Assembly (NCBI GenBank): GCA_946410085.1
Contig: CAMJZA010000013.1
Coordinates: forward strand, 1-61,264
DNA length: 61,264 bases
Direction: 5' to 3'
Source of the DNA: an uncultured Treponema sp.
Lineage (GTDB): Bacteria; Spirochaetota; Spirochaetia; Treponematales; Treponemataceae
The position numbers were made by a program, and so were the translations under genes. Below, piece by piece: positions 1,700 to 60,223 of the stretch. Position 1 is the first letter of the stretch, and every line of letters starts with the position of its first letter. The notes below the pieces were generated by a model, which did no database searches, had not been told where the DNA came from, and worked only from the letters and a program-made list of their open reading frames with translations.

Positions 1700-1950
1700 C
1701 TTTTTTCTCCACAGTTTACGCCACGTGTGGAAACTGCCGGAACATGACTGTGGAAAAACCGTGTACAGTTCCGCCGGAAAGCCCTTTTTGTGGAAATGTG
1801 GAAAAGCTGTGCGCTGAACCCTGCGGCTTTTCAACAGTGCAAGCCCTTTTCCACAAAAGAAATGGGGGCCTTTTCCCCCAATCCACACCCCTTATTATTG
1901 TTGTTATTGAATTTATAAATTCATATAAATTCATAAGCCCTGTGGACAGC
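1700..1950. other. oriC: Candidate chromosomal origin (oriC): DnaA-box cluster plus AT-rich tract
   Basis: About eight sites within two mismatches of the DnaA box TTATCCACA occur in 250 bases: 1705-1713, 1726-1734, 1749-1757, 1789-1797, 1797-1805, 1847-1855, 1879-1887 and 1941-1949. Several are TGTGGAAAA/TTTTCCACA. A strongly AT-rich stretch at about 1888-1937, made only of TTATT, TTGTT and AATTTATAAATTCAT-like runs, would serve as the unwinding element. The cluster lies 0.6 kb past the 3' end of dnaA with one GNAT gene between. Identification rests on box density and dnaA proximity; I could not compute GC skew. Confidence 0.65.
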
Positions 1951-1976
1951 CCTCAGGAACGTCTGTAGCCGGAATC

Positions 1977-2489
1977 CTATAAAAACTTCTCCATGATGTA
2001 GAAGTCCACCAGTTTTCCGTTTACCTTGAAAAAGCCCCTGAAAGTCCCGACTTTTTCAAAGCCGAACTTCTCATACAAGTGTATGGCATTGCTGTTGTCG
2101 CACCTGACTTCAAGGGAAACGATTTCTGACTTTGCCGTATTCCGTGCAAAATCCAGAAGCCGCTCCATGAGGGCGGTTCCCAGTCCCTGACCGCAGGCAG
2201 ATTTCCGCAGACAGATTCCTATCGTGCCGCGATGGGCCATGCGTTCCTTGCTGCACGCCGTGTAGTGGCACATTCCGGCTATCCGTGCATCCTTCCTTAC
2301 GACGAAAAAAGCCTCCCTGTCTGACGATGCCTTTTCGTCCAGCAGTCTGGCCTCATCTTCGACTGTCGTATTGTAAAATCCCCTGCCGTCGAAGGTCAGG
2401 TTGTCGGATTCTCCGCCTATGATTTTCATCAGGTCAAGGATTTCCTGTGCATCGGCCGCCGTGGGCCGGTCTATCGTTATTCCTTCCAT
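1977..2489 (-). CDS. GNAT-family N-acetyltransferase
   Basis: A complete 170-residue GNAT acetyltransferase. The acetyl-CoA binding loop is visible as RKSACGQGLGTALM (the Q/R-x-x-G-x-G/A motif, about residues 103-116), followed by the typical LEVRCDNSNAIHLYEKFGFEKVG segment ending in the F-GF-beta bulge. Members acetylate amines of small molecules, antibiotics or proteins; this sequence is of the generic RimI/YjcF-like type and the substrate cannot be assigned. A good ribosome site (GGAAGGA) precedes the ATG at 2489. It lies 36 bases downstream of dnaA on the same strand, between dnaA and the DnaA-box cluster. Confidence 0.85.
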   Translation of the reverse strand: MEGITIDRPTAADAQEILDLMKIIGGESDNLTFDGRGFYNTTVEDEARLLDEKASSDREAFFVVRKDARIAGMCHYTACSKERMAHRGTIGICLRKSACGQGLGTALMERLLDFARNTAKSEIVSLEVRCDNSNAIHLYEKFGFEKVGTFRGFFKVNGKLVDFYIMEKFL

Positions 2490-2525
2490 TTCCTTCCGCC
2501 GATTACGTCGATTATTTTATGCCGA

Positions 2526-4139
2526 TTATTTCCGGTAATCCTTTATCTCCCTCACGAGCATGTTTATCGTTGACTCAAGGGACGCATCTATCTTGAGCTG
2601 GTCGGCGATTTTCTCGTAGCTGTGCATCATCGTCGTGTGGTCGCGGCCGCCGAACTCTTCGCCGAGTTCCGGGTAGGAATAGTCGAGCAGGGTCCTGCCG
2701 ATGTAGATCGCAATCTGCCGGGGAAAGGTAACCTTGCTGTTCCGCTTCTTGCCCTTCATGTCTGAGATGGAGATATTGTAATGGGCGGCGACGACCCGCT
2801 GTACGGTGTCGACCGAGATGGATTCCATGGACGCTTCCACGAAGTTGTCCCGCAGGAGGTTCTGGGTCTTTGCGATGTCGGGCACCTGGCCGGTCAGGTC
2901 TGCATAGCCGATGATCTTGTTCAGGCAGCCTTCCAGGTCGCGGACGTTGGACTGTACGTTCTTGGCGATGTAGCTGATGACGTCTTCGGGGAGCTGCCGG
3001 TCCATGAGTTCGAGCTTTTTCTGCAGGATGGCGCAGCGGGTTTCAAACTGGGGCGGTGCCATGTCGATTGCCGCCCCGCTGCCGATCCTGCTGCGCAGGC
3101 GTTCTTCCAGACCCTTCAGTTCGCTGAGGGGGCGGTCGCAGGTAAAGACCATCTGGGCGTTGTGGCTCCTGAGGGCGTCAAAGGTATTGAAGATCGCTTC
3201 CTGCAGGCGTTCCTTGCCGAGCAGGAAGTGGATGTCGTCGAGCAGGAAGACGTCGTAGCTGCGGTACTTTCTGGTAAAGGAGTCGGTCACGTTTTCCTTG
3301 ATGGCGGCGCTGAACTCGTTCATGAAGTTTTCCGTCGGCTTGTAGCATATCTTGAGCGGTTCAGGGTTGTGCTGCCAGATGTAGTTGCCGACTGCCTGCA
3401 TCAGGTGGGTCTTGCCCAGGCCGCTGCCGCCGTAGAGGAGGAGGGGGTTGAAGAGCTTGGCCTGTCCGGGGTTGCGGGCGATGGCGAGGCAGGACGAATA
3501 GGCGTAGTCGTTGTTGTCGCCCTTGACGAAATTGTCGAAGGTGAAGTCGCTGCTCAGGAGGGGGTGAGGGCCGCGGCCGGCCGGGCTTCCCTGCACGCTT
3601 CCCCGGGCGGCAGGCGACAGGCGGTCGGAATTGTAGTCTTCCCGTGCTTGGGCGAGGATGTCGTTCTGGCCGGCGTTCTGGCTAAAGGCAGGGCCGGCGG
3701 ACGGGCCAAAGGCCGCTGGAACCGCGGGGCGGTCAGCGTCCTGCATGGAAGGAGCTGCAGAATATGCGGCCGGGCTGGCAGGGCTGCTCCCGCCGGGAAC
3801 GACAGCTGCGGCATCCGGAACGGAACTTTGGCCTGTGCCGGATGCCTGTCCTGCCCCGGCGGTCTTTGACACGGGTCGGTTCGTTTCGACGTGGACGAGG
3901 GTGATTTCCTGCCCGGTCAGTTCCTTGAGCTTTTCCTGTACCGTGGATACATAGCCCTTGCTGACCTGCTGGGCCCAGAAGAATGCGGACGGCACGTTGA
4001 CCGTTATCTCGGTGCCTTCGTCGCTCACGTATTCCATGTTGAACCAGAGGCGGAAGTCTCCTTCCTGGCCTTTCCTGCCGTATTCTTCTCCTATCTGCCT
4101 GAGGGCCTCGCCCCACAGTTCCCGAAAGTTTTCGCTCAT
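2526..4139 (-). CDS. dnaA: Chromosomal replication initiator protein DnaA
   Basis: A 537-residue DnaA with the four expected domains: N-terminal DnaB/self-contact domain (1-90), an unusually long Ala/Pro/Gly-rich linker (about 95-195), an AAA+ ATPase domain, and a C-terminal DNA-binding domain. Walker A is GGSGLGKTHL (about 235-244), Walker B is VFLLDDIHFL, and the box-recognition signature is GGRDHTTMMHSYEKI (about 493-507). It is longer than the usual 440-470 residues because of the linker. It melts oriC and recruits the replicative helicase. A promoter sits so close to the ATG that the mRNA is probably leaderless. dnaN is not adjacent; it lies at 19.66 kb on the other strand. Confidence 0.98.
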   Translation of the reverse strand: MSENFRELWGEALRQIGEEYGRKGQEGDFRLWFNMEYVSDEGTEITVNVPSAFFWAQQVSKGYVSTVQEKLKELTGQEITLVHVETNRPVSKTAGAGQASGTGQSSVPDAAAVVPGGSSPASPAAYSAAPSMQDADRPAVPAAFGPSAGPAFSQNAGQNDILAQAREDYNSDRLSPAARGSVQGSPAGRGPHPLLSSDFTFDNFVKGDNNDYAYSSCLAIARNPGQAKLFNPLLLYGGSGLGKTHLMQAVGNYIWQHNPEPLKICYKPTENFMNEFSAAIKENVTDSFTRKYRSYDVFLLDDIHFLLGKERLQEAIFNTFDALRSHNAQMVFTCDRPLSELKGLEERLRSRIGSGAAIDMAPPQFETRCAILQKKLELMDRQLPEDVISYIAKNVQSNVRDLEGCLNKIIGYADLTGQVPDIAKTQNLLRDNFVEASMESISVDTVQRVVAAHYNISISDMKGKKRNSKVTFPRQIAIYIGRTLLDYSYPELGEEFGGRDHTTMMHSYEKIADQLKIDASLESTINMLVREIKDYRK

Positions 4140-5209: not shown

Positions 5210-6316
5210 TCATGTTTTCCTGACGACGAAGAGGTATTCGCTGACCTGGAGGCTACGGGCTGACAGGTTGCGGCTGCCGCGGAATGTCGGGTAGGGGATT
5301 TCGGCCGTCCTGACGCTGCCGTAGCGGGAAAGCATGGCAGTCATTTCTTCCATGCGGATGAAGCCTTCCGAGTTGTAGGAGATGATGAGGTACTTCGTGT
5401 CGAGTGAGGATACGAGGGCTTCCAGCGATGAAAGCGCGTCTTTTGCGCGGTTGAAGGCCGAACGGTTCCAGTCCTGGGGAATGCCCGACACTTCGCTCAC
5501 CGGGGCGTCCAGCGAGTTCCGCACTATCAGGTTCAGCATGAAGTAGTTGGATCCGTAGGGGTGCTGGTTGTAGGGCGGGTCCAGGTAGGCGAGGTCCAGC
5601 CCCTTGAGGCGGGGGGCGAGGGTAAGGGCGTCTTCCTGAAAGATTTCATGGCGGGAGCTGAATGCGCTGAGTACCGGCTTTTTCAATTCCACCCGGCCCA
5701 GTATGCGGGGAAGGGCGTTCCTGCCTGCTCCGCCGAAACAGCCGATGCCCGTCGTTTTGTCCTTATAGAATCCTTTGAATACCCCGCTTGTGTTTACGTG
5801 GATGGAAGCTTCCGTCAGGAGGGGGGCGATGAAGAATCTCTGCAACTCTGGTCCGGCGAAGCGGTCGGCAAGCGCGCGGTAACTGTCGATGCGGAGGGCG
5901 TTTTCCCGCGTGTAGAATACCCGCTCCCCCTTCTGTATGTGCGCATCGTCGGCGGGGGCGTAGTGGGCGGAAAGGATGCCGCTCACGGGGGCACGTTTGA
6001 ATTCCGCCTCGATGAGATCCCGGCAGCGTTCCCATTCGGCTTCGGGAAAGTCCTTCCGGTTCGTCAGGTAACAGGCATTGATCACGGCGGAATAGGCTTC
6101 CAGGTCGTTGACGATGAGGCGGCTGCTGTAGCGCTTGAGCATGCGGGCGACGATGCCGGAGCCGGAAAAGAGGTCGGCGCAGCTGAGGCGGCGTTTTCCC
6201 AGTTCGGTCCTGATGCGCAGGACTTCCGCCTCGATGCTGCCGAGGAGCTGGCGCTTGTTGCCGATGTAGGTGATGATCTGGCTCGTGAGGTAGGCCGGGT
6301 TTTCTTCCTTTTTCAT
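5210..6316 (-). CDS. D12-class DNA adenine-N6 methyltransferase
   Basis: A 368-residue DNA methyltransferase. The N-terminus has the YIGNKRQLL motif typical of Dam/D12 enzymes. Motif I is CADLFSGSGIVARML (about residues 42-56). The catalytic motif is LAYLDPPYNQHPYGSNYF (DPPY near 244). These enzymes transfer a methyl group from SAM to adenine N6. No partner endonuclease is next to it; its position between rdgB and the parS region allows either a solitary regulatory methylase or half of a dispersed system. The recognition site cannot be read from sequence. SAM would be supplied by MetK, encoded 9 kb away. Confidence 0.88.
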   Translation of the reverse strand: MKKEENPAYLTSQIITYIGNKRQLLGSIEAEVLRIRTELGKRRLSCADLFSGSGIVARMLKRYSSRLIVNDLEAYSAVINACYLTNRKDFPEAEWERCRDLIEAEFKRAPVSGILSAHYAPADDAHIQKGERVFYTRENALRIDSYRALADRFAGPELQRFFIAPLLTEASIHVNTSGVFKGFYKDKTTGIGCFGGAGRNALPRILGRVELKKPVLSAFSSRHEIFQEDALTLAPRLKGLDLAYLDPPYNQHPYGSNYFMLNLIVRNSLDAPVSEVSGIPQDWNRSAFNRAKDALSSLEALVSSLDTKYLIISYNSEGFIRMEEMTAMLSRYGSVRTAEIPYPTFRGSRNLSARSLQVSEYLFVVRKT

Positions 6317-6401: not shown

Positions 6402-7226
6402 TCACAGGCCGCTGTCCTTGAGGGTGTCTGTCTTAAGGGTGTACAGTTCCCCCATGAAATACTGCTCCTGGAATCCGATGGCGGCACGGATTTCTGCTTC
6501 GCTGCGTGGCAGGCCGTCGGCCGAGACGATCCACTTGTCCTCTACGTCGTTCAGGCGGTGGCACACGGCGATGACCCTGCCGCTGAAGCTGCTGACCGGC
6601 CCGGCTTCCCCCAGCAGGTACACGTCCTGCTCCTCTCCGTCCCCCGCGGTCAGCCCGTCCACATAGCCGTAGTTGACCGGGTACAGCATTTCGGGATAGT
6701 CGGGATGGCGGGAGCCGAGCGGGCGGTCTATGGTACCCGAAACGCTTTTGCCGAGGATGTCCCGGTAGTCCGGGGTTTCTATGTCCTTCCGGTAGATGAG
6801 GCTGCTTCCTCCCCACACGTCCTGCATTGTTTTCATGTACGTAAAGCCGAATTTCTCGTAGAGGCTCTGCTGGTCGGTCGAAACGTAGAGGCTCCGGTAG
6901 CCTTCCTTTTTGGCGGTGGCGTAGGCCTGCTCGAACAGCCTGCCGATCCGCCTCCTGCCTCTGTACGGGGGGAATGTATAGACAAAGCCGATCCAGGGGG
7001 TCAGGCCGCAGTCAAGAATCCCGTCGCGCTCGGCGAGGGTGCAGAAGGAGATGAGCTCCCTGCCTTCCGTGAGGAGGAAGAGCCTGCTCTTTGCGCCGCA
7101 ATGCCGGTAGAAGCTGTTGTCTGCCAGAAGTTCGTGCAGGTATTTTCCTGCACGCCAGTCGGACGCACCGATTTTTTCCAGCCAGCAGTCCTTGTCGCGC
7201 TCCTGCGAGAATTCCCGTATCTCCAT
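6402..7226 (-). CDS. GNAT-family acetyltransferase with C-terminal extension
   Basis: A 274-residue protein. The GNAT core is in the first 150 residues: TFPPYRGRRRIGRLFEQAYATAKKEG is the acetyl-CoA loop and helix, followed by LYVSTDQQSLYEKFGFTYM. The remaining 120 residues form a separate domain (LGSRHPDYPEMLYPVNYGYVDG, later GRVIAVCHRLNDVEDKWIV). This resembles the small DUF4829/inorganic-pyrophosphatase-like tails found in some Firmicutes GNAT fusions, but I would not assign it a function. It has its own promoter, with the -10 six bases from the ATG. Acetyltransferase assignment is good; the substrate is unknown. Confidence 0.78.
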   Translation of the reverse strand: MEIREFSQERDKDCWLEKIGASDWRAGKYLHELLADNSFYRHCGAKSRLFLLTEGRELISFCTLAERDGILDCGLTPWIGFVYTFPPYRGRRRIGRLFEQAYATAKKEGYRSLYVSTDQQSLYEKFGFTYMKTMQDVWGGSSLIYRKDIETPDYRDILGKSVSGTIDRPLGSRHPDYPEMLYPVNYGYVDGLTAGDGEEQDVYLLGEAGPVSSFSGRVIAVCHRLNDVEDKWIVSADGLPRSEAEIRAAIGFQEQYFMGELYTLKTDTLKDSGL

Positions 7227-7458: not shown

Positions 7459-7467
7459 TTATCCACA
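7459..7467 (+). promoter_or_regulatory. Consensus DnaA box
   Basis: An exact TTATCCACA followed by GTTTATCAAC. The extended form TCCACAGTTTA recurs at 7590-7600 and in the 1.7 kb cluster (1709-1719). It lies 16 bases before the first parS site. Confidence 0.6.
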
Positions 7468-7482
7468 GTTTATCAACATCGG

Positions 7483-7498
7483 TGTTTCACGTGAAACG
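7483..7498. promoter_or_regulatory. parS: parS site 1
   Basis: TGTTTCACGTGAAAC followed by G: 15 of 16 bases match the palindromic ParB-binding consensus TGTTTCACGTGAAACA. ParB loads here for segregation and condensin recruitment. Such sites cluster near the replication origin. Confidence 0.85.
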
Positions 7499-7529
7499 TT
7501 GCCGGTGCAAAATTAAAGTATTACTATGA

Positions 7530-7555
7530 AAGAATTTAGAATTTTCTAAATTCTT
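7530..7555. repeat. 26-bp perfect palindrome in AT-rich DNA
   Basis: Two 12-base arms (AAGAATTTAGAA and its complement) surround a central TT. It lies between parS 1 and the TTTTCCACA box, inside the only strongly AT-rich part of this region (about 7508-7605). No T-run or gene end makes it a terminator; a protein-binding or unwinding element is more likely. Confidence 0.6.
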
Positions 7556-7585
7556 ATGTTTCCCGAACAGTCATTTTATACGATG

Positions 7586-7594
7586 TTTTCCACA
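7586..7594 (+). promoter_or_regulatory. DnaA-box-like site TTTTCCACA
   Basis: One mismatch from the DnaA consensus and followed by GTTTATAAA, repeating the context of the consensus box at 7459. Together with parS 1 and the palindrome it makes a second origin-like block 5.7 kb from the 1.7 kb cluster. Confidence 0.5.
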
Positions 7595-7859
7595 GTTTAT
7601 AAATTCCGCGCTTTGGATGAGGGGAGGGGATGGAGAAGGGGTTTCCGGGGGCTGCGCCTTGGGGGAGTGTTTGTTGTGGAACTGATTGCGCGATGGGGGG
7701 GGCGGGAGGTATACATATGGGTAGCATACCCCCTGCGGATTGTCAATGTACACGGCTACGCTCCTGCTTGCGGGTGGGACAGGCTGATTCTTCTCAAGAA
7801 CGTGAAGTGTCTTCTCCTTCCCAAATGAGGCGCGACGCTACGCACTTGCTTGTGTCGCG

Positions 7860-7875
7860 TGTTTCACGTGAAACA
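7860..7875. promoter_or_regulatory. parS: parS site 2 (perfect)
   Basis: The 16-base palindrome TGTTTCACGTGAAACA matches the ParB consensus exactly. It is 377 bases from site 1. Chance occurrence of two such sites in 400 bases is negligible. Confidence 0.92.
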
Positions 7876-8128
7876 CACCACGCAAGCAGGGGCCTCGTCC
7901 GTTGGATGCCCGTTGGGCACGACGTACCGCAGGACGGGCGCATCCGGCACGTCTCGTGTACGTTCCGGGTTCAGTCCGGGCGACAAATCGTTCGGTAATA
8001 TTGCCTGCGCCGGTAGTATCGCCGGTGAGGGCGCAGGAGGACGGCGTCTTGACGGCGGGCGAAAAGCATAGTATCGTCGGAAACGGAGCCGCTTTTTGCA
8101 ACCGGCTCGGAGGAAACTCGGAGGAACT

Positions 8129-9698: not shown

Positions 9699-11165
9699 TC
9701 ACTCAGCGAGGCGGTAGACGACGGAGCCGCGTTCGGGTGTCCAGATGGCCTTGCGCTGTTCGGGGAGGCTTGCGATGCTTGAAAGCCTGAAGCCCATGCT
9801 TTCGAACCAGTCGGAGGTCTGGGTCGTCAGGAGGAAGATGTCTCTTGCACCCGAGCGGCGGGCGCGCGCAATGAGGAACTCGACGAGCTTGGGGCCGATG
9901 CCGAGGCTGGAGCAGGAGCGGTCTACGGCGATGCCGGCGATTTCCATCTGGCCGTCGCTGTAGGGGATGAGGGCGGCGGATGCGCGGATGGCGCCGTCCA
10001 GTTCGTAGACGACGTAGTGGCTCAGCTGGTCGCCGAGCGACTCCTTGCTGCGCGGGAGGAGGATGCCTTTTTCGACGAAGGGCTGCATGAGGGTGAGGAC
10101 GGCGGGGATGTCGTCGCTTTCCATGTCGCGGATGCGGCCGTAGTCGCGCACGTAGATCATGGTTCCCGAACCGAAGTCGGAGAAGATTTCGCAGGGGAGG
10201 GTTCCTTCCATAGAACCGTCCAGGATGTGGACGCGGGAAACCCCGGACGAACAGGCCCGGCGGGCAATCGTGAGCAGTTCATGCATTTTTTCCCTGTCAA
10301 CCGGGCTGCTGTATGCGGAATGTATCGAGCGTTCGGTAGAAGCGGGGGCTTTTCCCCCTGCATTGACCGACGGGAAGTTAGTCTGCAGGAAGGCGTCCAG
10401 TTCGTCCAGGCTCAGGGCGGGGACGGTGTCTTCCGCCGAAAGGCTGAGGCCTTCGGGAATGACGAACCGTTCGGCAGTTATCGCTGCGCCGGGCACGAGG
10501 TAAAAGAGCTTGTCGGCGTTCAGGTGACAGGCGATTTTTTCGGCAAGCATGGTCGAAGAGATGTTGTAGGGCCTGCCGGCGATGGACCAGCCGATGCAGG
10601 GGAAGATGGGAATGAAGCCGTCTTCCAGCACTTTGCCCAGCGAGGCGGCGTCTACCTTGTCGATGTCGCCGACGGTTCCCCAGTCGTAGCCGCCGATGAT
10701 GCCCCGGCCCCGGGCGCGGACCCAGTTGCCGATGAGGGCGGGGACTTTTTCTCCGGCGAGGGCGGTCATGACTTGGTTGGACACGTCAAAGGCGGCCATC
10801 TTGATGAGGGGCATTGCCTCTGCGTCCGTTACGCGGCAGCCGTCCCGGGTCCGCCAGGGGATGCCCGACCGGGAAAGGATGTCGTCTATGCGGACGGCCG
10901 CTCCCGGCACGAGGATGATCCGGAGTCCCGCCCGGTGCAGGAGGCCGATGTCCTTGATGTGGGAGAGGAAGACGCCCTGGTCCAGCAGCTTGCCGTCCAG
11001 ATAGATGACGAGGAGGGCGTCCCGGAAGCGGTCGATGTAGCGGATGACGTCGCGGATGGAGGCTGCCCGGTCCCGGATGCGGGCTGCGGCGTTCTGCACG
11101 GCGGGGCCGGCAGTGTTCTGCAGGGCTTGTCCGGCGGCCGCGGGCTGTATCGTGTCGTGGTTCAT
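9699..11165 (-). CDS. argA: ArgA-type amino-acid N-acetyltransferase (kinase-like + GNAT domains)
   Basis: A 488-residue two-domain protein. The N-terminal half is an amino-acid-kinase fold (IRYIDRFRDALLVIYLDGKLL; LRIILVPGAAVRIDDIL; ALIGNWVRARG). The C-terminal GNAT domain has MQPFVEKGILLPRS and AVDRSCSSLGIGPKLVEFLIARA. This order is that of bacterial N-acetylglutamate synthase, which makes N-acetyl-L-glutamate from glutamate and acetyl-CoA, the first step of arginine synthesis. The kinase-like domain usually mediates arginine feedback. The start at 11165 follows a GAAGG site; the longer frame to 11300 runs into repeat DNA and is rejected. No other arg gene is nearby. Confidence 0.85.
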   Translation of the reverse strand: MNHDTIQPAAAGQALQNTAGPAVQNAAARIRDRAASIRDVIRYIDRFRDALLVIYLDGKLLDQGVFLSHIKDIGLLHRAGLRIILVPGAAVRIDDILSRSGIPWRTRDGCRVTDAEAMPLIKMAAFDVSNQVMTALAGEKVPALIGNWVRARGRGIIGGYDWGTVGDIDKVDAASLGKVLEDGFIPIFPCIGWSIAGRPYNISSTMLAEKIACHLNADKLFYLVPGAAITAERFVIPEGLSLSAEDTVPALSLDELDAFLQTNFPSVNAGGKAPASTERSIHSAYSSPVDREKMHELLTIARRACSSGVSRVHILDGSMEGTLPCEIFSDFGSGTMIYVRDYGRIRDMESDDIPAVLTLMQPFVEKGILLPRSKESLGDQLSHYVVYELDGAIRASAALIPYSDGQMEIAGIAVDRSCSSLGIGPKLVEFLIARARRSGARDIFLLTTQTSDWFESMGFRLSSIASLPEQRKAIWTPERGSVVYRLAE

Positions 11166-11254
11166 ATATATACCTTCGTGCCTTTTCCGCTCTGTCATTA
11201 TGCAGAAAAAATGCATCATTTTCCCCGGTAAAGTGACAAAAATGCCTCCTGTCT

Positions 11255-11287
11255 GAAGTGGAGAAGCTCGCCGCCGGGCAGGGGTGA
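11255..11287 (+). repeat. 33-base copy of the 3' end of the Rpn-like gene
   Basis: This stretch matches 11885-11917, the last codons and stop of the Rpn-type remnant, at 30 of 33 bases. It is a detached tail of the same or a sibling gene, 0.6 kb upstream, and marks local duplication and deletion. Confidence 0.65.
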
Positions 11288-11302
11288 TACGCTCTCGCAA
11301 CT

Positions 11303-19358: not shown

Positions 19359-19658
19359 GGAAAAAGGGGCTGTTACGGGAAAAAATCTTACGGGCGGCAG
19401 GGGCGGCCCCGAGTCCGGTGTACGCGGTCGGGTTCCGGGACATCTTTCCGGGCAGCCGGAAGCGGACCTGTTGGGTTCGGGCTGCCCCCGGGCAGGTGCG
19501 GGTCCGAAGCTGGTGGACGCGGACGCCCCCGCCTGCCGCGGCCTGCACGTTTCCCGCATTCCCCGCTAGTCATTTTCCGTAGAGTGTGCTATACTGAACG
19601 GACGGCGCGGGGTCCTGCCGCTTCCGGCAGTTCCGCTTGCGCCCCAGGAGTTTTGACG
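19359..19658. other. dnaN upstream region
   Basis: GC-rich with no gene. An inverted repeat GGGCAGCC / GGCTGCCC (19450-19487) is present. A -10 TATACT (19590-19595) with a weak -35 TAGTCA (19567-19572) at 17 bases could drive dnaN with a 55-60 base leader. Confidence 0.4.
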
Positions 19659-20783
<1,125 letters not shown>

Positions 20784-48832: not shown

Positions 48833-50269
48833 ATGAATGAAAGCAGTATCTTAACAGATTATAAACTGGAAAAGCTCATAAAGGACGGAGAAGGCTTTAC
48901 TGTTGAATTCAAAAAGTGCAGGAACGCCCTGCCGGCTTCTATTTTTGAGACCGTCTGCTCATTCTCCAACCGTTACGGCGGATTCATCCTGCTGGGCGTT
49001 GATGATTCTGGAAAAGTTTTGGGCGTGGAAGCATCTGCTGTCCAAAAAATCAAAAAGGATTTTATCAACACGCTCAACAACCCGAATAAAATTCGTCCGT
49101 CGCTGTTCCTGAATCTTGAGGAATATGAATACGAAGGAAAAACGATTCTCTGGGTATATGTACCTGTCAATTCCGATGTTGAATACTGTGACGGCAAGGT
49201 TTATGACCGCAACGGAGATGCAGACCAGGACATAACAAAATCCGTTGATCTGGTGGCGAACCTTTACAGCAGAAAGTCGCATGATTTTTATGAGCGGACA
49301 CTGCTTCCCTATGCAACGCTTGACCACCTTCGGCTTGACTTGATTCCAAAAGTGAAGCAGCTTGTGCAGATTAAGAATACTTTGCATCCGTGGAAGGACA
49401 TGGATGCAATGGACATCTTTAAAAGTTCGGGACTGTACAAGGACAATCTCATCACAGGAAAAAAAGGCTTCAATCTTGCGGCGATTCTTCTGTTCGGCAA
49501 GGACACGGCTATTCAGTCATGCCTTCCGGCGTATAAAACCGACGCAATTTTCCGCGACAAGAATCCAGACCGCTACGATGACCGCCTGATTGTAGAGACA
49601 AATCTAATCGAAAGTTACGAGAGGCTGATGGAGTTCGTTCAGAAGCATACTGATGACAGATTCTTTCTGGTTGACAACTTGTCGACCAGCGTACGCGACA
49701 AGATTGCCCGTGAGGTTGTTGTGAACACGCTTGTTCACCGCGAGTATTCAAGCGCATATCCTGCAAAGCTGATTATCACAAAAGACAGCCTTTATACTGA
49801 AAACTGGAACCGCTCCACAAAGTTCGGACGGCTTACCCCCGATAACTTTACTCCCTACCCGAAGAATCCGCTTATAGCAAAGTTTTTTATGGAACTTGGA
49901 ATGGCGGACACGCTCGGTTCAGGAGTACGCAACCTGTACAAGTTCACAAAAATCTATTCCAATACAGAGCCTTTTTTGGAAGAAGGGGATGTGTTCAAGA
50001 CTACGGTTTTGCTTGAAAATGGCGGAATAAATGGCGGAATAAATGGCGGAATAAATGGCGGAATAAATGAGACTGAAAAAGTGCTTCTCGAAGCAATAAA
50101 AGCAAATCCTTTTGCTCGAAATGAAGATTTAGTACAAATCTCTTCATTTTCAAGTAGAACAGTGGACCGTACAATAAAAGCACTCCGCGAAAAAGGTGTT
50201 CTAAAACGTGAAGGTGCAAAGAAAAATGGACATTGGCTTGTACTTGCACAAAATCAGGAGAATATATAG
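48833..50269 (+). CDS. AlbA_2 (Schlafen-like) ATP-binding regulator, first gene of the defence island
   Basis: A 478-residue protein. The N-terminal AlbA_2 domain has TVEFKKCRNALPASIFETVCSFSNRYGGFILLGVDDSGKVLG, the usual E-F-K ... A-x-x-N-x-x-GG-x-x-x-x-G-V-x-D pattern. A middle HATPase_c_4-like region has VVNTLVHREYS and TLGSGVRNLYKFT. A 12-bp repeat (50029-50076) makes four NGGI units, and a C-terminal winged helix follows (EDLVQISSFSSRTVDRTIKALREKGVLKREG). Such proteins are putative transcriptional regulators often found in defence islands. The stop is two bases before the helicase start, so they are co-transcribed. Confidence 0.85.
   Translation: MNESSILTDYKLEKLIKDGEGFTVEFKKCRNALPASIFETVCSFSNRYGGFILLGVDDSGKVLGVEASAVQKIKKDFINTLNNPNKIRPSLFLNLEEYEYEGKTILWVYVPVNSDVEYCDGKVYDRNGDADQDITKSVDLVANLYSRKSHDFYERTLLPYATLDHLRLDLIPKVKQLVQIKNTLHPWKDMDAMDIFKSSGLYKDNLITGKKGFNLAAILLFGKDTAIQSCLPAYKTDAIFRDKNPDRYDDRLIVETNLIESYERLMEFVQKHTDDRFFLVDNLSTSVRDKIAREVVVNTLVHREYSSAYPAKLIITKDSLYTENWNRSTKFGRLTPDNFTPYPKNPLIAKFFMELGMADTLGSGVRNLYKFTKIYSNTEPFLEEGDVFKTTVLLENGGINGGINGGINGGINETEKVLLEAIKANPFARNEDLVQISSFSSRTVDRTIKALREKGVLKREGAKKNGHWLVLAQNQENI
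50029..50076 (+). repeat. In-frame 12-bp repeat (NGGI)
   Basis: Four copies of AATGGCGGAATA in a linker between domains. Similar NGGI runs occur in this regulator family. The number can vary by slippage without a frameshift. Confidence 0.85.
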
Positions 50270-50271
50270 AC

Positions 50272-53200
50272 ATGGCAAACACAGAAACTGTAGCAGACAC
50301 GCTGATTAGGGACAACAAGGCGTATGGCAACGTCGGGGACTTCCTGAAAGAGGTCGTAAAGGAAGGTTCCGAGCTTTCCGTTGTTTCTGCATACTTCACG
50401 ATATTCGCCTATTACGGCCTGCACGAGCAGCTTGATGCCATAAAGGGCATGAAGTTCCTGTTCGGCGAGCCTACGTTCATAAAAGGGCTGGATGCCGATG
50501 TCAGGAGCTATAAGATAGAGGATGATTCCATCATCATCTCCCCGTCAGAACGTTTCTCACAGAAACGCATTGCTCACAAGTGTGCAGAATGGATAAAGGA
50601 CAAGGTGGAGATAAAGTCCATCGTAAAGCCCAATTTCCTGCACGGAAAGATGTACTATGTCCACAGGCAGATTCAGGACTTGCAGGAAAAAAAGGCGATT
50701 TCCGGCAGCTCCAACTTCACGACAAGCGGACTGGGGCTTAAAAAGGACTGCAACAATGTGGAGCTGAACCTCATCGTGGACAGCGACCGACAGAAAGAGG
50801 AACTGAAGGGCTGGTTTGACCAGATTTGGAACGACACGACCGGACTGGTGCAGGATGTAAAGGTTGAAGTGCTCAAGTATCTGGAGCAGCTGTACAAGGA
50901 GAATGAGCCGGAGCTGGTCTATTTCAAGACCCTGTATTCGATTTTCAAGGACTACCTTGAAGAGCAGATGGACAGCAAGCTCTTTGACGAGACTGCGTTC
51001 AAGGACACGGTTGTCTGGAACAAGCTTTATGAATTTCAGAAAGACGGTGTGAAAGGTGCAATCAACAAGCTTTTAAAGCATAACGGTTGCATAATTGCAG
51101 ATTCGGTCGGCTTGGGTAAAACTTTTGAAGCTCTTGCGGTAATTAAATATTTTGAACTTAGAAATTACCGTGTTCTTGTGCTTTGTCCTAAAAAATTGAG
51201 CGACAACTGGACTGTGTATCAGGCAAGCAAAAACAGTACTTTGAATATACTTGCCAAAGACCGATTCCAGTACAACATCTTGTATCATACAGATATGGGG
51301 CGTGAGACAGGCAAATCCGGCGCAGATGGACATGATTTTGCAACTTTCAACTGGGGCACATACGATCTTGTTGTAATTGATGAAAGCCACAACTTTAAGG
51401 GCAATCCGCTTGAAGCAGAAAAGAACGGTGAAAAGCACATGAATCGTGCCAAATGGCTGATGGAGAAAATCATAAAGTCCGGCAGCAAAACAAAAGTCCT
51501 TATGCTTTCGGCTACTCCTGTAAACAACAGTCTTAAAGATTTGAGAAACCAGATAAACCTGATTACAGAAGGCAATCAGTCTGCTCTTTTTGAAACAACA
51601 GGAATTAACGATATAGCAAATACTCTGGAAAGTGCACAGAAGCAGTTTACCTATTGGGCTGATCCGAATAAAAACCCGGAACGGACAACAAAACAGCTTA
51701 TGGAAAAACTTGATTCATCATTTTTCAAGTTGCTCGATGAGCTTACGATTGCACGTTCAAGAAAACACATTACAAAATTCTATAATGAAGCTGATGTCGG
51801 AAAATTCCCAGAAAGAAAAAAGCCTATTCCTGTTTATTCTAAAATTGACACGCTTGATGAATTCCCTGAGTATTCAGCGATTAACAATCAGATTTCAAGT
51901 TACCAGCTTTCTGTTTTCAATCCGTCTAAATATGTTAAAGAAGAAAAAAAAGATTATTATGCAAAACTTGCAGGCTCTTCGGTTGAAGCTTTCATACAGG
52001 AAGACCGTGAAAAATCTTTGATTGGCATGATGAAAGTGGGCTATCTAAAACGCCTTGAAAGTTCCATTCATTCTTTTGCAATTTCAATTGACCGCACTGT
52101 AAATCAGATAACGAATCTTCTCAATAAAATAGACGAGTATGAAAAACTCTCTGAAAGCGAAAAAGAAAAATTTGCTTTGCAAAACCAAATTGAGCAGGAT
52201 TTTGATGAAGACGAGAACTTTTCAGAAGATGCAGATTCATCTGGTGATTTTGACAGTGAAAATCTGTTCGTCGGTAAGAAGCTCAAGTTCAGCCTTGCGG
52301 ACTTAAAGCTCGATGAATGGAAAAAGGACTTGCGTGCTGACCGTTCTGCAATGATTTTGATAAAAAACTCCGCAAAAGAAATTACAGCGGAGCGCGATTC
52401 AAAACTGCAAGATTTGAAAAAGCTGATTTTCGACAAGGTGAAAAATCCTTTCAATCCGCAAAACAAAAAAGTTATTGTCTTTACGGCATTCTCTGACACG
52501 GCAGAATATCTTTATAAAGAAATTCAACCTTGGGCAAAAAAAGAGCTTGGGCTTGAATCAGGACTTGTGTGCGGCTCAAAGAGTAATGCAAGCTGGGGCA
52601 AAACCGACTTCAATATGATTCTTACAAATTTTGCGCCAAAAGCAAAGCACCGCGATGAATTGAACCTCGGTGAGGACGAAACGTCAAAGGAACTTGATAT
52701 TCTGATTGCAACGGACTGCATCAGCGAGGGCCAGAACCTGCAGGACGGCGATTACCTCATAAACTATGACATCCACTGGAATCCTGTGCGCATCATCCAG
52801 CGGTTTGGACGCATTGACCGTCTGGGTAGCACAAATGCAAGCATCCAGCTGGTGAACTTCTGGCCAACGCAGGATTTGGATGACTACATAAACCTGAAGA
52901 CCCGCGTAGAAAGCCGTATGGCCCTTGTGGATTTGACCGCGACCAACGAGGACAACATTCTTGATAACTCCGAGGCAAAGGAACTTATCGCCGAGGACTT
53001 GAAGTACCGTGATCAGCAGCTCAAACGCCTGAAAGACGAAGTGCTTGATTTGGAGGACATGTCGGATTCCATCTCATTGACCGACTTTACGCTGGACGAT
53101 TTCCGCGTGGAGCTTTCAAATTTCATAAAGGACAATGCCGGGAAAATGGAAAGCGTGCCGGATGGGGTTTATGCCGTCGTTCCCTGTGACAAACAAAACA

Positions 53201-53634
53201 TTGAGGCAAGCGCACGGAACATCATCCGGCCGGGCGTGATTTACTGCCTTCGGCAAAAGAACCAGAACGAGGATTGCGGGCAGGTGAATCCGCTCAATCC
53301 CTATTTCCTTGTCTATGTGTACGAGGACGGAACGGTGCGGTTCAACTACACAAGCGCGAAATCAGTCCTGGAAGTATACCGCCTGCTGTGTTCCGGGGAA
53401 AAAGCCCCGTATGACGCGCTCTGCGACCTGTTCAATAAGGAAACCAAGAACGGCTCCGATATGGGAAAGTATTCTGCCCTGCTGGAAAAAGCGGTTGATG
53501 AAATCACCACCAGCTTTAAGAAGCGGAGCGCGGCACGGTTGACGACGGGTAGGAGCGGTATCCTTATTACAAAGGAGAAGCAGGCCTCCTGCATGGGCGA
53601 CTTTGAGCTTGTCACCTGGCTTGTGATAAAGTAG
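50272..53634 (+). CDS. PLD-nuclease/SF2 helicase fusion
   Basis: A 1120-residue protein. The N-terminal phospholipase-D-type nuclease has HGKMYY (His about 124, H-x-K) and GSSNFTTSG (about 145-153). A SNF2-like SF2 helicase follows: IIADSVGLGKTFEAL (Walker A, about 273-287), VVIDESHNF (DEAH-type box, D about 370), LSATPVNNS (about 412), then after a long acidic, AT-rich insert the C-terminal motifs IATDCISEGQNLQ (about 812) and QRFGRIDRLGS (about 842). Similar PLD-helicases accompany methylases in defence loci, where the helicase translocates and the nuclease cuts invading DNA. AGGAG lies 11 bases before the ATG. Base composition shifts at about 51,060 and 52,670. Confidence 0.9.
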   Translation: MANTETVADTLIRDNKAYGNVGDFLKEVVKEGSELSVVSAYFTIFAYYGLHEQLDAIKGMKFLFGEPTFIKGLDADVRSYKIEDDSIIISPSERFSQKRIAHKCAEWIKDKVEIKSIVKPNFLHGKMYYVHRQIQDLQEKKAISGSSNFTTSGLGLKKDCNNVELNLIVDSDRQKEELKGWFDQIWNDTTGLVQDVKVEVLKYLEQLYKENEPELVYFKTLYSIFKDYLEEQMDSKLFDETAFKDTVVWNKLYEFQKDGVKGAINKLLKHNGCIIADSVGLGKTFEALAVIKYFELRNYRVLVLCPKKLSDNWTVYQASKNSTLNILAKDRFQYNILYHTDMGRETGKSGADGHDFATFNWGTYDLVVIDESHNFKGNPLEAEKNGEKHMNRAKWLMEKIIKSGSKTKVLMLSATPVNNSLKDLRNQINLITEGNQSALFETTGINDIANTLESAQKQFTYWADPNKNPERTTKQLMEKLDSSFFKLLDELTIARSRKHITKFYNEADVGKFPERKKPIPVYSKIDTLDEFPEYSAINNQISSYQLSVFNPSKYVKEEKKDYYAKLAGSSVEAFIQEDREKSLIGMMKVGYLKRLESSIHSFAISIDRTVNQITNLLNKIDEYEKLSESEKEKFALQNQIEQDFDEDENFSEDADSSGDFDSENLFVGKKLKFSLADLKLDEWKKDLRADRSAMILIKNSAKEITAERDSKLQDLKKLIFDKVKNPFNPQNKKVIVFTAFSDTAEYLYKEIQPWAKKELGLESGLVCGSKSNASWGKTDFNMILTNFAPKAKHRDELNLGEDETSKELDILIATDCISEGQNLQDGDYLINYDIHWNPVRIIQRFGRIDRLGSTNASIQLVNFWPTQDLDDYINLKTRVESRMALVDLTATNEDNILDNSEAKELIAEDLKYRDQQLKRLKDEVLDLEDMSDSISLTDFTLDDFRVELSNFIKDNAGKMESVPDGVYAVVPCDKQNIEASARNIIRPGVIYCLRQKNQNEDCGQVNPLNPYFLVYVYEDGTVRFNYTSAKSVLEVYRLLCSGEKAPYDALCDLFNKETKNGSDMGKYSALLEKAVDEITTSFKKRSAARLTTGRSGILITKEKQASCMGDFELVTWLVIK

Positions 53635-53644
53635 GAAGAGAACT

Positions 53645-54682
53645 ATGACAGAAAATAACAGCGAAATTATAATCTATAATACAGACGATGGAAAAGCCGA
53701 CGTAAAGCTGTATTCCAAAGACGGCGTAATCTGGATGAACCAGCAGCAGATGGCGTTACTTTTTGACACCTCCAAGCAAAATATCAGTCTTCATATTGCT
53801 AATATTTTACAAGATAAAGAATTAGATGAAAAAGCAGTTGTCAAGGATTACTTGACAACTGCTTCGGACGACAAAAAATATAATGTGACATACTATGCAC
53901 TTCCTATGGTATTGGCTGTTGGTTTTCGTGTCCGAAGTATTCGCGGGATTCAGTTCAGAAAATGGGCTAATAAAAATCTTACAGAATTCTTGCAGAAAGG
54001 TTTTGTAATGGACGATGAACGCCTAAAAAATCCTGACGGACGTCCAGATTATTTTGACGAGCTTCTTGAACGAATCCGTGACATCCGTGCAAGCGAAAAA
54101 CGCTTTTATCAGAAAATCCGGGATTTGTTTGCACTTTCTTCCGATTATGACGCAACGGACAAGGCAACACAAATGTTTTTTGCCGCTACACAGAACAAAC
54201 TGATTTATGCCGTTACTCGTCAAACTGCCGCTGAACTTATTTTAGCTCGTGCTGACAGTTCCAAGCCGAATATGAACCTTACAAGCTGGAAAGGAAAAAT
54301 CGTCCGCAAACAGGATATTTACACAAGCAAAAACTATTTGACAGAAGATGAGCTTGATTCATTAAACCGAATCGTAACAATCTTTTTAGAAAGCGCAGAG
54401 TTACGCGCAAAAATGCGGAAAGATTTAACCATTCGTTACTGGGAAGAAAATGTAGATAAACTCATAACCGACCACGACTTGCCTTTGCTTGGTGACAAAG
54501 GCAGCCGTTCCCATAAACAGATGGAATCAGAAGTTGAGAAAATCTATATTGAATTTGATAAACGACGAAAAGCCTTTGATGCACAAGAAGCCGACGGACA
54601 GGATGAAGCGGAGATTATGGCTGAGATGAAAATGCTTGATGATATAGAAAATAAAATTAAGCTGAGATTGGAGAATAACTAA
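53645..54682 (+). CDS. RhuM-family protein
   Basis: A 345-residue RhuM (virulence protein/RhuM) family member: IIYNTDDGKADVKLYSKDGVIWMNQQQMALLFDTSKQNISLHIANIL, then YYALPMVLAVGFRVRSIRGIQFRKWANKNL, a helical middle (EKRFYQKIRDLFALSSDYD) and a charged C-terminus. RhuM proteins are frequent companions of type I and IIG restriction systems and are thought to modulate them; the mechanism is unknown. It starts 10 bases after the helicase stop and ends one base before the methylase start, so it is inside the operon. Confidence 0.92.
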   Translation: MTENNSEIIIYNTDDGKADVKLYSKDGVIWMNQQQMALLFDTSKQNISLHIANILQDKELDEKAVVKDYLTTASDDKKYNVTYYALPMVLAVGFRVRSIRGIQFRKWANKNLTEFLQKGFVMDDERLKNPDGRPDYFDELLERIRDIRASEKRFYQKIRDLFALSSDYDATDKATQMFFAATQNKLIYAVTRQTAAELILARADSSKPNMNLTSWKGKIVRKQDIYTSKNYLTEDELDSLNRIVTIFLESAELRAKMRKDLTIRYWEENVDKLITDHDLPLLGDKGSRSHKQMESEVEKIYIEFDKRRKAFDAQEADGQDEAEIMAEMKMLDDIENKIKLRLENN

Positions 54683-54683
54683 A

Positions 54684-57600
54684 ATGGCAAAGAATACTGA
54701 TGAAAAGCTGAATATTCAGGAAGCAATTAAGGCATTTGCAAAAGATGATATTTCAAAAGCCGGTATAAATCTCTTTACGACGATTGGCTACGACACGAGC
54801 CTGCAAGCGCCTCTGGAAGACAAGACCTTCGCTGAATTCAACGAGCTGTATGTTCAGGAATCCCCCAATCGTGAGCGGTTCAGCGAAGGGCGGGCGCTTG
54901 TTGGCGACTGGAAATCTATCGACATCCTCTTCCAGCTGACAGACGACTCCTTCAAAGGACAGGGGAAGCTTTTTGACTCCAAGGTGAATCCGTACGAGAA
55001 GCAGTCCTATCTGTGCTTTGCGGTGGAACTCAGTAAAGATGAATATACCAAAACGCAGATTTCAAATATTACACGTGAAATAAACAAACTGTTCTCGATT
55101 CCGATTCTCGTGATTTTCAAATATGGCGGGTACATAACGCTTGCAGTAATCAATCGCCGGGTGAACAAGAAAGACAGTGACCGCGACGTATTGGAAAAGG
55201 TCACGCTCATCAAGGATATCGTCATAGACCGTCCGCACAGGGCGCACATCGAGATTCTGGCGGATATGTCGCTTGACAGCTTGAACAGGACGTACGACAT
55301 CCACAGTTTTGAAGGACTGCACAAGGCATGGACAGAAGTCCTTGACACGCAGACTCTGAACAAGCGCTTTTACACGGAGCTTTCCAACTGGTACTTCTGG
55401 GCAATCAAGACCGTTGTGTATCCGGGATATGAGATGGAGGCGGACAAGGAGGGGCTTTTCAAGCGGGATGACAAAATACGCGAGCACAACGCAAAGAACC
55501 TCATCCGCCTTTTGACCCGGCTCTTGTTCGTCTGGTTCATCAAGGAAAAGGATTTGATTCCCGAGGAACTTTTTGACGAAAAAAGTATTGCTTCCATCAT
55601 TACGCGTTTTGCTCCCGAGTTCAGCAAGGATGATGGCTTAGCTGATCCCGAAAAGGCGAGCATCTACTACAAGGCAATTCTTCAAAATCTCTTTTTTGCG
55701 AGCCTTAATGCCGAACAAAGCAAACGGGCTTTCCGTATTGACGGACAGAATCAGAACGCCACGAGCCTGATGCGCTACAAACGATACCACAAGAATCCGG
55801 AAGCTTTTGTAAGCCTTATAGAATCGAAAGTTCCGTTCATGAACGGAGGTCTTTTTGAGTGTCTGGACCATCAGGACGACGAGCTGAAAGGCCGGAAGGG
55901 GGGAGCTGTAATCGACTACGAGGATGGCTTCAGCGACCGGAGCGACAACGAGCTTTTTGTTCCCGACTACATTTTCTTTGGAAAGGACGTGCAGGTTGAC
56001 CTGAGCAGCGAATACGATGACAAAAAGAAAAAGGAAGTCACGGTAAACGGAATCATCAACATCCTGCAAAAATACAAGTTCACGATTGCAGAAAACACAC
56101 CGGTGGAAGAGGACATCGCGCTTGACCCGGAGCTTCTAGGCCGCGTGTTTGAAAACCTTCTTGCTTCTTACAACCCTGAAACAAAAACAAATGCCCGCAA
56201 ACAGACAGGAAGTTTTTATACTCCAAGACCAATTGTAGAATACATGGTTGATGAAAGCTTAAAAGCTTATTTAAAAACAAAGATAAAAGATGCAGCACTT
56301 TCAAAAGGAACTTTGGAAGAAAAAACAAAAGCTGTAGAAGAACTCGAAAACACTCTTGATTCAAAACTCGACAATCTCATCGGTTATAATGAAACTGAAC
56401 CTGAGTTTTCTGCAGAAGAACGTTTCCAGATTTTACGTTATATCGATGAATGTAAAATCTTAGACCCTGCCTGTGGTTCTGGTGCTTTCCCTATGGGAAT
56501 TTTACAGAAAATGGTTTATGTAATTCATAAGCTTGACCCGCAGAACGACAATTGGAAGCAGATTCAGATTCAAAAGATTTCTAATGATACAAAGCTTACT
56601 CCAAAAGAAAAGAATGAGCTTCAAAAAGAAATCCTCACAGTATTTGATGATAACGAACTGGACTATGCACGAAAGCTCTATTTGATTGAAAATTGTATAC
56701 ACGGAATAGACATACAGCCGATTGCCACACAGATAAGCCGACTTAGATTCTTTATCTCGCTTATTGTTGACCAGAAGGTTGATGGAAATAAGGCAAATTT
56801 TGGTGTGCGTCCGCTGCCTAATCTTGAAAACCGTTTTGTTACCGCAAACAGTTTGATTGGGCTTGATAATCAGACAGGCTATCTTGCGGAAGCTGAGATT
56901 ATTGATTTAAAGGAAGAACTGAAAACAATCCGCCACAAATTGTTCAACGCAAAAAGTCCTTCCTATAAATTTGAGCTTAAACAGAAAGACAAAGAAATCA
57001 GAGGTAAGATGGAGCAGGTGCTTCTTGACTCTGGCTTTGGAAAGCAAAATGCCAGCATGATTTCCACCTGGGATCCCTATGATAAGAACAAGAGTGCAGA
57101 TTTCTTTGATGCAGAATGGATGTTCGGAATAAAGGATGGTTTTGATATTGTGATTGGGAATCCTCCATATATTTCTGCTCCAGCACAGATTGTTGATACT
57201 GTCATGAACAAACAACGTCAACAGCTTATTGATTCGGATAGGTTCAAATCCTTGTATCAGAAATGGGATATGTATATTGTTTTCATTGAATTGGGTTTGC
57301 AGTTGAGTAAACAGAATGGAATTCTTTCTATGATTGTACCATATCCATTAACCAATCAATTGTATGCAAAAGTCCTTCGTAAAATCCTTGTTGAAGAAAA
57401 CGACATGTTTGAGCTTGCCGATTTGAACGGCACAAAGATTTTTGATAATGCTACTGTGAGCAATTGTATTCCATTTGTAAGAAAGTCTAAAACAAAAGGA
57501 AAAACATGGATTAGCAAGGTTGATGAAAATCTGAAAATCATCCGGGAATTTTTACAAAATCATAGCGACCTTGTGCAAGATGAAAAAACGTATGTTTGGA

Positions 57601-58382
57601 ACGTAACGCAGGAAAAACGCGAAACGAACCGCCACGCCGATATGCATGTTTTGGGTGATTTTTGCTTTATAAGTTATGGCCTGCGATTAAATTCTGACGA
57701 AAAAACTGCAAGAGGCGAGTTCAAAAAAGCTGATTTGTTAAGTGAAACTCCCGATGCGATTCATTGTCGAAAATTGATTGAAGGAAAAGATATTGAGCGA
57801 TATCAAATTAGGAAAATTCATTATGTTGAGTGGGGAACAGATAGGTGTCCAGCAAAATTAGTTCGCCCGACATTTTCCGAGTTCTACGATTTTCCAAAAT
57901 TATTTTGCAATTATCTGGGAAATTTGACTTGTGTAGCTGATTTTAAAAACCAATTTATTCATACGCATCTGATAACAGGTTGTGTTCTTTGGAAAGATTT
58001 GCATGGTGTTGAGAATAAAAGCATTACCTCAAGCATCAAAAAGTTCAGCACAATGGCTCGCGAGGCTATGGAAGAACTTTCTAAAACGATAGATTTGCGT
58101 TATTTGCTCGGCGTGATGAACTCAAAGTATGCTTCTGTGTTACTGACGAATTTGCGCGGCGGTGATTATCACATTTACCCAGAGCATATCCGTAATATCC
58201 CGATTCCATCTGCCACTCCCGACCAGCAAAAACCTATTATCGACCTTGTAGACAAAATCCTCGCTGCAAAAAAAGCCAATCCGCAGGCAGATACAATCAA
58301 AGAAGAAGCAGAAATCGACCGCCTTGTCTACACGCTCTATGGCCTTTCCGAAGACGAGATAAAGATTGTGGAGGGGAGGTAG
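54684..58382 (+). CDS. Eco57I-type restriction-modification methylase (type IIG-like)
   Basis: A 1232-residue protein. SAM-binding motif I is LDPACGSGAFPMGIL (about 593-607); the catalytic motif is IVIGNPPYISAPAQ (about 822-835), giving N6-adenine methylation of the Eco57I/PglX kind. The N-terminal 500 residues contain the region common to large Eco57I-type enzymes (VELSKDEYTKTQISNITREINKLFSIPILVIFKYG), but I cannot identify a certain PD-(D/E)XK nuclease motif. The C-terminal 300 residues (PTFSEFYDFPKLFCNYLGNLTCVADFKNQFIHTH; KYASVLLTNLRGGDYHIYPEHIRNIPIP) are a TaqI-like specificity region. GC is higher in 54.8-56.2 kb than after it. Nuclease activity may come from the PLD-helicase upstream. 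Confidence 0.9.
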   Translation: MAKNTDEKLNIQEAIKAFAKDDISKAGINLFTTIGYDTSLQAPLEDKTFAEFNELYVQESPNRERFSEGRALVGDWKSIDILFQLTDDSFKGQGKLFDSKVNPYEKQSYLCFAVELSKDEYTKTQISNITREINKLFSIPILVIFKYGGYITLAVINRRVNKKDSDRDVLEKVTLIKDIVIDRPHRAHIEILADMSLDSLNRTYDIHSFEGLHKAWTEVLDTQTLNKRFYTELSNWYFWAIKTVVYPGYEMEADKEGLFKRDDKIREHNAKNLIRLLTRLLFVWFIKEKDLIPEELFDEKSIASIITRFAPEFSKDDGLADPEKASIYYKAILQNLFFASLNAEQSKRAFRIDGQNQNATSLMRYKRYHKNPEAFVSLIESKVPFMNGGLFECLDHQDDELKGRKGGAVIDYEDGFSDRSDNELFVPDYIFFGKDVQVDLSSEYDDKKKKEVTVNGIINILQKYKFTIAENTPVEEDIALDPELLGRVFENLLASYNPETKTNARKQTGSFYTPRPIVEYMVDESLKAYLKTKIKDAALSKGTLEEKTKAVEELENTLDSKLDNLIGYNETEPEFSAEERFQILRYIDECKILDPACGSGAFPMGILQKMVYVIHKLDPQNDNWKQIQIQKISNDTKLTPKEKNELQKEILTVFDDNELDYARKLYLIENCIHGIDIQPIATQISRLRFFISLIVDQKVDGNKANFGVRPLPNLENRFVTANSLIGLDNQTGYLAEAEIIDLKEELKTIRHKLFNAKSPSYKFELKQKDKEIRGKMEQVLLDSGFGKQNASMISTWDPYDKNKSADFFDAEWMFGIKDGFDIVIGNPPYISAPAQIVDTVMNKQRQQLIDSDRFKSLYQKWDMYIVFIELGLQLSKQNGILSMIVPYPLTNQLYAKVLRKILVEENDMFELADLNGTKIFDNATVSNCIPFVRKSKTKGKTWISKVDENLKIIREFLQNHSDLVQDEKTYVWNVTQEKRETNRHADMHVLGDFCFISYGLRLNSDEKTARGEFKKADLLSETPDAIHCRKLIEGKDIERYQIRKIHYVEWGTDRCPAKLVRPTFSEFYDFPKLFCNYLGNLTCVADFKNQFIHTHLITGCVLWKDLHGVENKSITSSIKKFSTMAREAMEELSKTIDLRYLLGVMNSKYASVLLTNLRGGDYHIYPEHIRNIPIPSATPDQQKPIIDLVDKILAAKKANPQADTIKEEAEIDRLVYTLYGLSEDEIKIVEGR

Positions 58383-58385
58383 AGG

Positions 58386-60200: not shown

Positions 60201-60223
60201 AAAAGGAGGAGGAGTAAAGAGTA

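Follow-up and report, generated by a model that had tools for sequence, protein, structure and literature searches.

DnaA boxes in the parS region of Treponema-type genomes: a candidate upstream half of a split replication origin

Split origins, initiator sites at centromeres and the locus in comparison

DnaA boxes can lie outside the unwinding origin, with titration as a possible role, as at datA of Escherichia coli. Split origins in which one half melts are reported for Bacillus subtilis, Helicobacter pylori and other Epsilonproteobacteria (PMC5043019, PMC6669920), and for the first two species both halves are described as essential in vivo while one half unwinds (PMC6669920). Initiators also occur at centromeres: one account places DnaA at the parS of Caulobacter and RctB at the parS2 of Vibrio (PMC6399470). 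Among spirochaetes, DnaA of Borrelia burgdorferi is reported to bind the dnaA-dnaN region in vitro, with gyrB-dnaA DNA competing (PMC9879097). The parS site of Borrelia and a ParB-SMC role are described in passages that do not mention DnaA boxes at parS (PMC9712426), and the origin of T. pallidum is reported as placed by gene synteny (PMC8284648). We found no description of a parS-linked DnaA-box layout in spirochaetes in the literature searched.

Here we analysed a window (the whole stretch of DNA under study, 61,264 nucleotides) with two DnaA-box clusters near dnaA, block 1 and block 2. Like the oriC1-dnaA-oriC2 origins of B. subtilis and H. pylori, both clusters are intergenic, and a candidate unwinding element is recognised, at the level of the motif, only in the cluster beyond the dnaA 3' end. 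In contrast to those origins, the upstream cluster lies inside parS, beyond gyrBA or other genes, and dnaA alone does not separate the two: rdgB, a methylase gene and GNAT genes accompany dnaA in the window, and gyrBA does so in most relatives. Two parS sites near the origin and an encoded chromosomal-type ParB point to a ParABS centromere, and, as at DBC/datA-type titration sites, the box cluster lies outside the candidate unwinding origin. Of the features of a stand-alone origin, an unwinding-element match was not found at block 2, and the GC-skew minimum lies at dnaA/dnaN, not at block 2, in four of four relatives.

DnaA boxes at a centromere close to the origin also characterize the parS region of Caulobacter crescentus, but the predicted sites here are clustered boxes conserved across a genus of a different phylum, together with box loss upstream of dnaA. 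In rctA/parS2 of V. cholerae chromosome II, initiator sites and parS are likewise embedded together beside the origin; the initiator there is RctB, not DnaA, and the chromosome is a secondary one. The oriC-proximal DnaA-box clusters of B. subtilis share a position outside the unwinding origin and possible titration, but are not described as parS-linked in the cited text (PMC5295017), whereas the cluster here travels with parS. The Borrelia burgdorferi arrangement matches the other families studied below and not the parS-linked boxes. Block 2 fits none of these systems exactly.

Two DnaA-box blocks and the candidate unwinding element

The assembly searched comprises 3,639,086 bases (3.64 Mb) in 134 contigs and is 97% complete. 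It represents a Treponema-type genome, and most of its named relatives are Treponema from the rumen or gut. The features of the window are as follows (strand in brackets where assigned):

1705, 1726, 1789, 1828: weaker DnaA boxes of block 1
1749-1855: perfect DnaA boxes of block 1, at 1749 (-), 1797 (-) and 1847 (+)
1880-1921 (+): putative unwinding element of block 1, with degenerate box AATCCACA, CCCC, six trios TTA/TTG and an AT-rich run
1977-2489 (-): GNAT acetyltransferase gene between block 1 and dnaA
2526-4139 (-): dnaA
4439-5113 (+): rdgB/Ham1 family gene
5210-6316 (-): D12-class adenine-specific DNA methyltransferase gene
6402-7226 (-): GNAT gene bordering block 2, with a homologue at the same place in the close relative L038
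7457-7598: unit of box, parS, AT palindrome and box (142 bp), 76.6% over 145 columns against L038
7459-7467 (+): block 2 DnaA box 1, perfect, TTATCCACA
7470-7478 (+): weak tandem DnaA box TTATCAACA, 11 bp after the first box
7483-7498: parS 1, one mismatch to TGTTTCACGTGAAACA
7505-7575: AT-rich tract between the two boxes, AT 0.75 versus 0.45 for the window
7530-7555: perfect 26-bp palindrome AAGAATTTAGAATTTTCTAAATTCTT within the AT-rich tract
7586-7594 (+): block 2 DnaA box 2, perfect, TTTTCCACA
7860-7875: parS 2, perfect (0 mismatches), inside the inverted repeat 7842-7893
9699-11300 (-): argA-like gene (amino acid kinase and GNAT), adjoining block 2 in many relatives
19584-20783 (+): dnaN, 15.5 kb from dnaA in the window and adjoining block 1 in most relatives

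The first-pass annotation had described a consensus box with a second one 127 bases on in the same context, an AT-rich tract and two parS sites in one intergenic region, separated from the first cluster by dnaA, rdgB and the adenine methylase. Our analysis bears this out: the boxes at 7459 and 7586 are both perfect, start 127 bp apart and share the TCCACAGTTTA context, the tract and both parS sites are present, and the intervening genes are as stated, with two GNAT genes in addition. The 26-bp palindrome and the unwinding element of block 1 go beyond that annotation. The palindrome is common to few members and is not a genus feature.

The motifs of block 2 are rare in the genome. The 14-mer TTWTCCACAGTTTA occurs twice in the assembly, at the two block 2 boxes (reversed-pattern control, 0), and parS at up to two mismatches was likewise found twice, both in block 2 (control, 0). 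Perfect boxes (TTWTCCACA) number 59 in the assembly versus 32 for the reversed control, and pairs of them within 127 bp are present only in blocks 1 and 2; a uniform distribution would give 0.12 pairs. All five perfect boxes of the 61-kb window fall in the two blocks. The chromosomal-type ParB is encoded on contig C1. The parS 2 unit, an inverted repeat of roughly 40 nt, recurs with parS in L038 near 3301, 4056 and 4341 and resembles a repeat family that spreads parS sites.

In the usual gene order, common to the genus and the other families of the order, the parS region is followed by gyrA and gyrB (reverse), dnaA, the block 1 gap with boxes, dnaN and recF, with rnpA and yidC beyond; in many genus members an argA-like gene precedes parS. 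The origin region of the window (1880-4139 and 19584-20783; contig C55 of genome G000) is broken up: dnaN runs opposite in direction to dnaA, block 1 is inverted behind a GNAT gene, gyrB lies on another contig and no gyrBA remains between block 2 and dnaA. Despite this rearrangement, the argA-like gene and block 2 are still near one another, and the 142-bp unit was kept although gyrBA no longer lies in the interval; no other long stretch of the 900-bp intergenic region has kept its place in L038. An AT-rich island (48833-61021, 31-48% GC versus about 60%) contains a likely defence operon, which encodes an SNF2-type helicase with an HKD domain, a PDC-S05-type protein, a type IIG-like restriction-methyltransferase and a PDC-S39-type protein.

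A regular expression for the unwinding element proved too strict, and we replaced it by a 50-nt position matrix with leave-one-out, which describes the dnaA-dnaN gap as a box followed by a C-rich spacer, TTA/CTA trios and an AT run. The scan gave one match in 38 of the 48 genus entries, on the block-1 side each time and never at block 2. Entries without a match were four that are cut at contig ends (two from one genome), L035-L037, L049/L054 (one genome) and L051. The hold-out described below agrees, with a single element in block 1 only. In the window, the element at 1880-1921 scored 38.6 bits while absent from the training set, its core occurs nowhere else in the assembly (control, 0), and block 2 lies about 5.6 kb away. 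The trio motif is that reported for the B. subtilis unwinding system (PMC6669920, PMC8287927), and the block 1 element is probably the melting sequence. In the AT-rich tract at 7505-7575, no DnaA-trio run was recognised.

Skew points to the same side. In four relatives the cumulative skew minimum falls +1.1, -0.1, -0.2 and +2.4 kb from dnaA, that is, at dnaA/dnaN in all four, with block 2 in the same order at -12.7, -5, -5 and -11.3 kb. Gene-level skew puts dnaA/block 1 ahead of block 2, with a margin of 25.9 nats in G001, 0.7 in G015, 1.2 in G024 and 1.5 in G031, so that support is decisive in G001 only. Within the window, which holds no left arm, the skew between the blocks (+0.08) resembles that of the right arm (+0.11), which is what forks leaving block 1 would produce. 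The codon-position skew of gyrBA and dnaA, negative in nearly all of these genes in both the genus and the other families, was uninformative for the origin. Block 2, called origin-like in the first-pass annotation, was rejected as a start site: the trio element is single and belongs to block 1, and skew in the genome with the widest gap places the start at dnaA/block 1. On the same two grounds, the AT-rich tract is not supported as an unwinding element.

The parS-DnaA-box composite is conserved across the genus

We compared two sets of genus loci. Zone definitions were picked after the first set had been seen and were applied unchanged to the hold-out. In the first set 34 loci were scored; left out were contigs that were too short (L035-L037, L050, L055, L058, L061, L104), duplicates (L043 and L065, equal to L042; L048, equal to L060) and loci with no upstream parS (L049/L054, L051), and the near-copies L039/L040 and L052/L060 were kept. 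Hold-out genomes were some of the 99 with a DnaA match, chosen for contig room around dnaA or a complete chromosome. Fifty loci were examined, five duplicates were dropped and nine had no upstream parS match (seven were truncated at contig ends, whereas the region is covered in L153 and L183), which left 36 scored.

In the first set, perfect boxes were present in the parS zone of 30 of the 34 loci (81 in 39.3 kb, 2.06 per kb), compared with 37 in 561.7 kb elsewhere (0.066 per kb). The hold-out gave 32 of 36 loci, with 98 boxes in 36.0 kb (2.73 per kb) versus 27 in 628.7 kb elsewhere (0.043 per kb). Box density in the parS zone is thus 31- to 64-fold background over both sets, and the cluster is present in 62 of 70 loci. 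First-set loci carried perfect boxes beside the dnaA 3' end in 29 of 34 cases, while the dnaA 5' zone held three in 20.4 kb (3/34 loci). Across the genus the composite architecture of parS and DnaA boxes is conserved, boxes next to dnaA have reciprocally been lost, and block 1 carries the one unwinding element recognised.

The other families of the order show the opposite layout: boxes lie directly upstream of dnaA, in the gyrB-dnaA gap, in 14 of 14 loci, beside the dnaA 3' end in 11 and in the parS zone in one. The gap itself has a median of 454 bp (387-925 bp, n=14) in these families versus 136 bp (84-216 bp, n=31) in the genus, where it is shorter by some 300 bp and retains hardly any of its boxes. 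Genus loci still carry weak boxes upstream of dnaA (10 within one mismatch, compared with 2.8 in shuffles). An unrooted DnaA tree unites the other families in a single clade, apart from the genus, with 100/100 support. Since the tree splits the groups at full support, the difference in box position maps to one branch, and the relocation was probably one switch, kept since; being one event, it makes the 62 positive loci non-independent. The in-vitro binding of gyrB-dnaA DNA reported for Borrelia DnaA (PMC9879097) suggests that the position beside dnaA is the older one.

Across the genus, parS sites and DnaA boxes cluster together 3.3-12.7 kb upstream of dnaA, the boxes inside the parS cluster, and the boxes remain with parS even where it lies at -9 to -13 kb (L040, L062, L079, L151, L166, L186). 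The first-pass annotation had likened the locus to split origins that flank dnaA. The two-block architecture is real and genus-conserved, which upholds that part of its bipartite-origin proposal; the blocks do not flank dnaA directly, with gyrA-gyrB between block 2 and dnaA in most relatives, and block 2 belongs with parS. Two styles of cluster occur. In one, to which the window belongs, a direct pair of boxes spaced 96-129 bp apart brackets an AT-rich tract; in the other, boxes about 20 bp apart are interleaved among parS sites. Helical phasing of the direct pairs is suggestive only (vector length 0.60 over 14 pairs; 0.55 over nine distinct spacings, p about 0.06, among pairs that are related). 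In many relatives block 2 lies past the gyrA 3' end with the argA-like gene converging, so the cluster is not tied to a promoter.

Exceptions were of several kinds. Boxes just outside the parS zone were scored as misses (L057, L069, L174). No perfect box was found in the zone of L041 and L070, where parS is present, nor any box in that of L169, which has parS matches. In G068 and G119 the one parS match is degenerate and no boxes accompany it; in L153 and L183 the region is covered but yields no parS, and the G017 genome contains none. Beside dnaA on the short contigs (3-6.6 kb) of the close relatives L035-L037, boxes, parS and the unwinding element are all absent. G068 and G119 (L201/L197, L195), G017 (L054) and L183 lack the canonical upstream parS cluster and may have diverged or relocated segregation sites. 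Separately, some lineages of the genus have a third cluster of perfect boxes about 10 kb downstream of dnaA, which was observed, at distances counted from the dnaA start, in L040 (about +10.5 kb), L042 and L044 (about +10.0 kb), G001 (about +10.5 to +11.3 kb and +29.4 kb) and G031 (about +9.9 kb); it is absent from G015, G024, L052 and L053.

Possible roles of block 2

We favour, with moderate confidence, the reading of block 2 as a composite of parS centromere and DnaA boxes that would form the non-melting upstream half of a split origin. It is ranked first because boxes were lost upstream of dnaA where they were gained at parS; against it, the distance and arrangement of the boxes vary, which would also fit loose titration. 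The role of such a half within parS is best read as loading, regulation or coupling to segregation. More tentatively, we propose that at the base of the genus the upstream origin half was moved to, or re-created inside, parS, so that DnaA and ParB may jointly govern initiation and segregation while melting is left to the dnaA-dnaN side.

From the sequence we infer DnaA and ParB binding, looping and function at block 2. DnaA would load at block 2 within an ori domain gathered by ParB and SMC, and looping would then deliver this DnaA to block 1 or withhold it from there, with block 1 alone being opened. The action on block 1 could be positive, as for a split-origin half, or negative, by holding DnaA back. 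ParB would load at and slide from parS sites that are interleaved with the boxes, and DnaA occupancy and segregation state could therefore affect each other.

The same variability of distance and arrangement, and the third cluster near +10 kb in some lineages, speak for an oriC-proximal DnaA reservoir that lowers free DnaA and delays initiation from outside the orisome. Precedents are reported in six such clusters that jointly restrain initiation in B. subtilis (PMC5295017) and in rctA/parS2, which titrates RctB beside a centromere (PMC6399470). We consider this rather unlikely, as titration alone leaves unexplained both the parS-zone placement in 62 of 70 loci and the appearance of the cluster where the gyrB-dnaA cluster is lost. 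The interleaving of boxes with parS sites would also suit a DnaA-operated trigger of segregation with no part in initiation, as in Caulobacter, where DnaA bound at the parS region is reported to set off movement of the centromere (Mera et al. 2014, according to PMC6399470 and PMC6667618). The matching box loss upstream of dnaA suggests that a replication role moved and not only that a new role was gained, and we regard such a trigger as distinctly improbable.

In G015 and G024, block 2 is the only perfect-box cluster in 200 kb, which together with the AT-rich tract could indicate a second, self-sufficient origin; with no unwinding element in any block 2 and a skew that flips at dnaA/dnaN (+25.9 nats in G001), this is extremely improbable. 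Scarcely better placed is a DnaA-controlled promoter of a neighbouring gene: the GNAT gene at 6402-7226 starts near block 2 in the window, but in many relatives the argA-like gene and gyrA converge on block 2, with their 3' ends facing it, and a promoter scan found no site within the block-2 unit. Chance co-occurrence, for which the shortness of the motifs and nothing further can be said, is refuted statistically by the counts and controls for the 14-mer, parS, box pairs and zone densities, and its probability is practically nil.

Replication and segregation need coordination, but sharing of one piece of DNA by the initiator and the centromere protein is known from few bacteria. The composite of parS and DnaA boxes may tie DNA copying to DNA segregation in this genus. 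The natural, genus-wide swap, with boxes beside dnaA in the sister families and in parS here, offers a clean comparative system that allows one to ask whether an upstream origin half can work from a centromere kilobases away.
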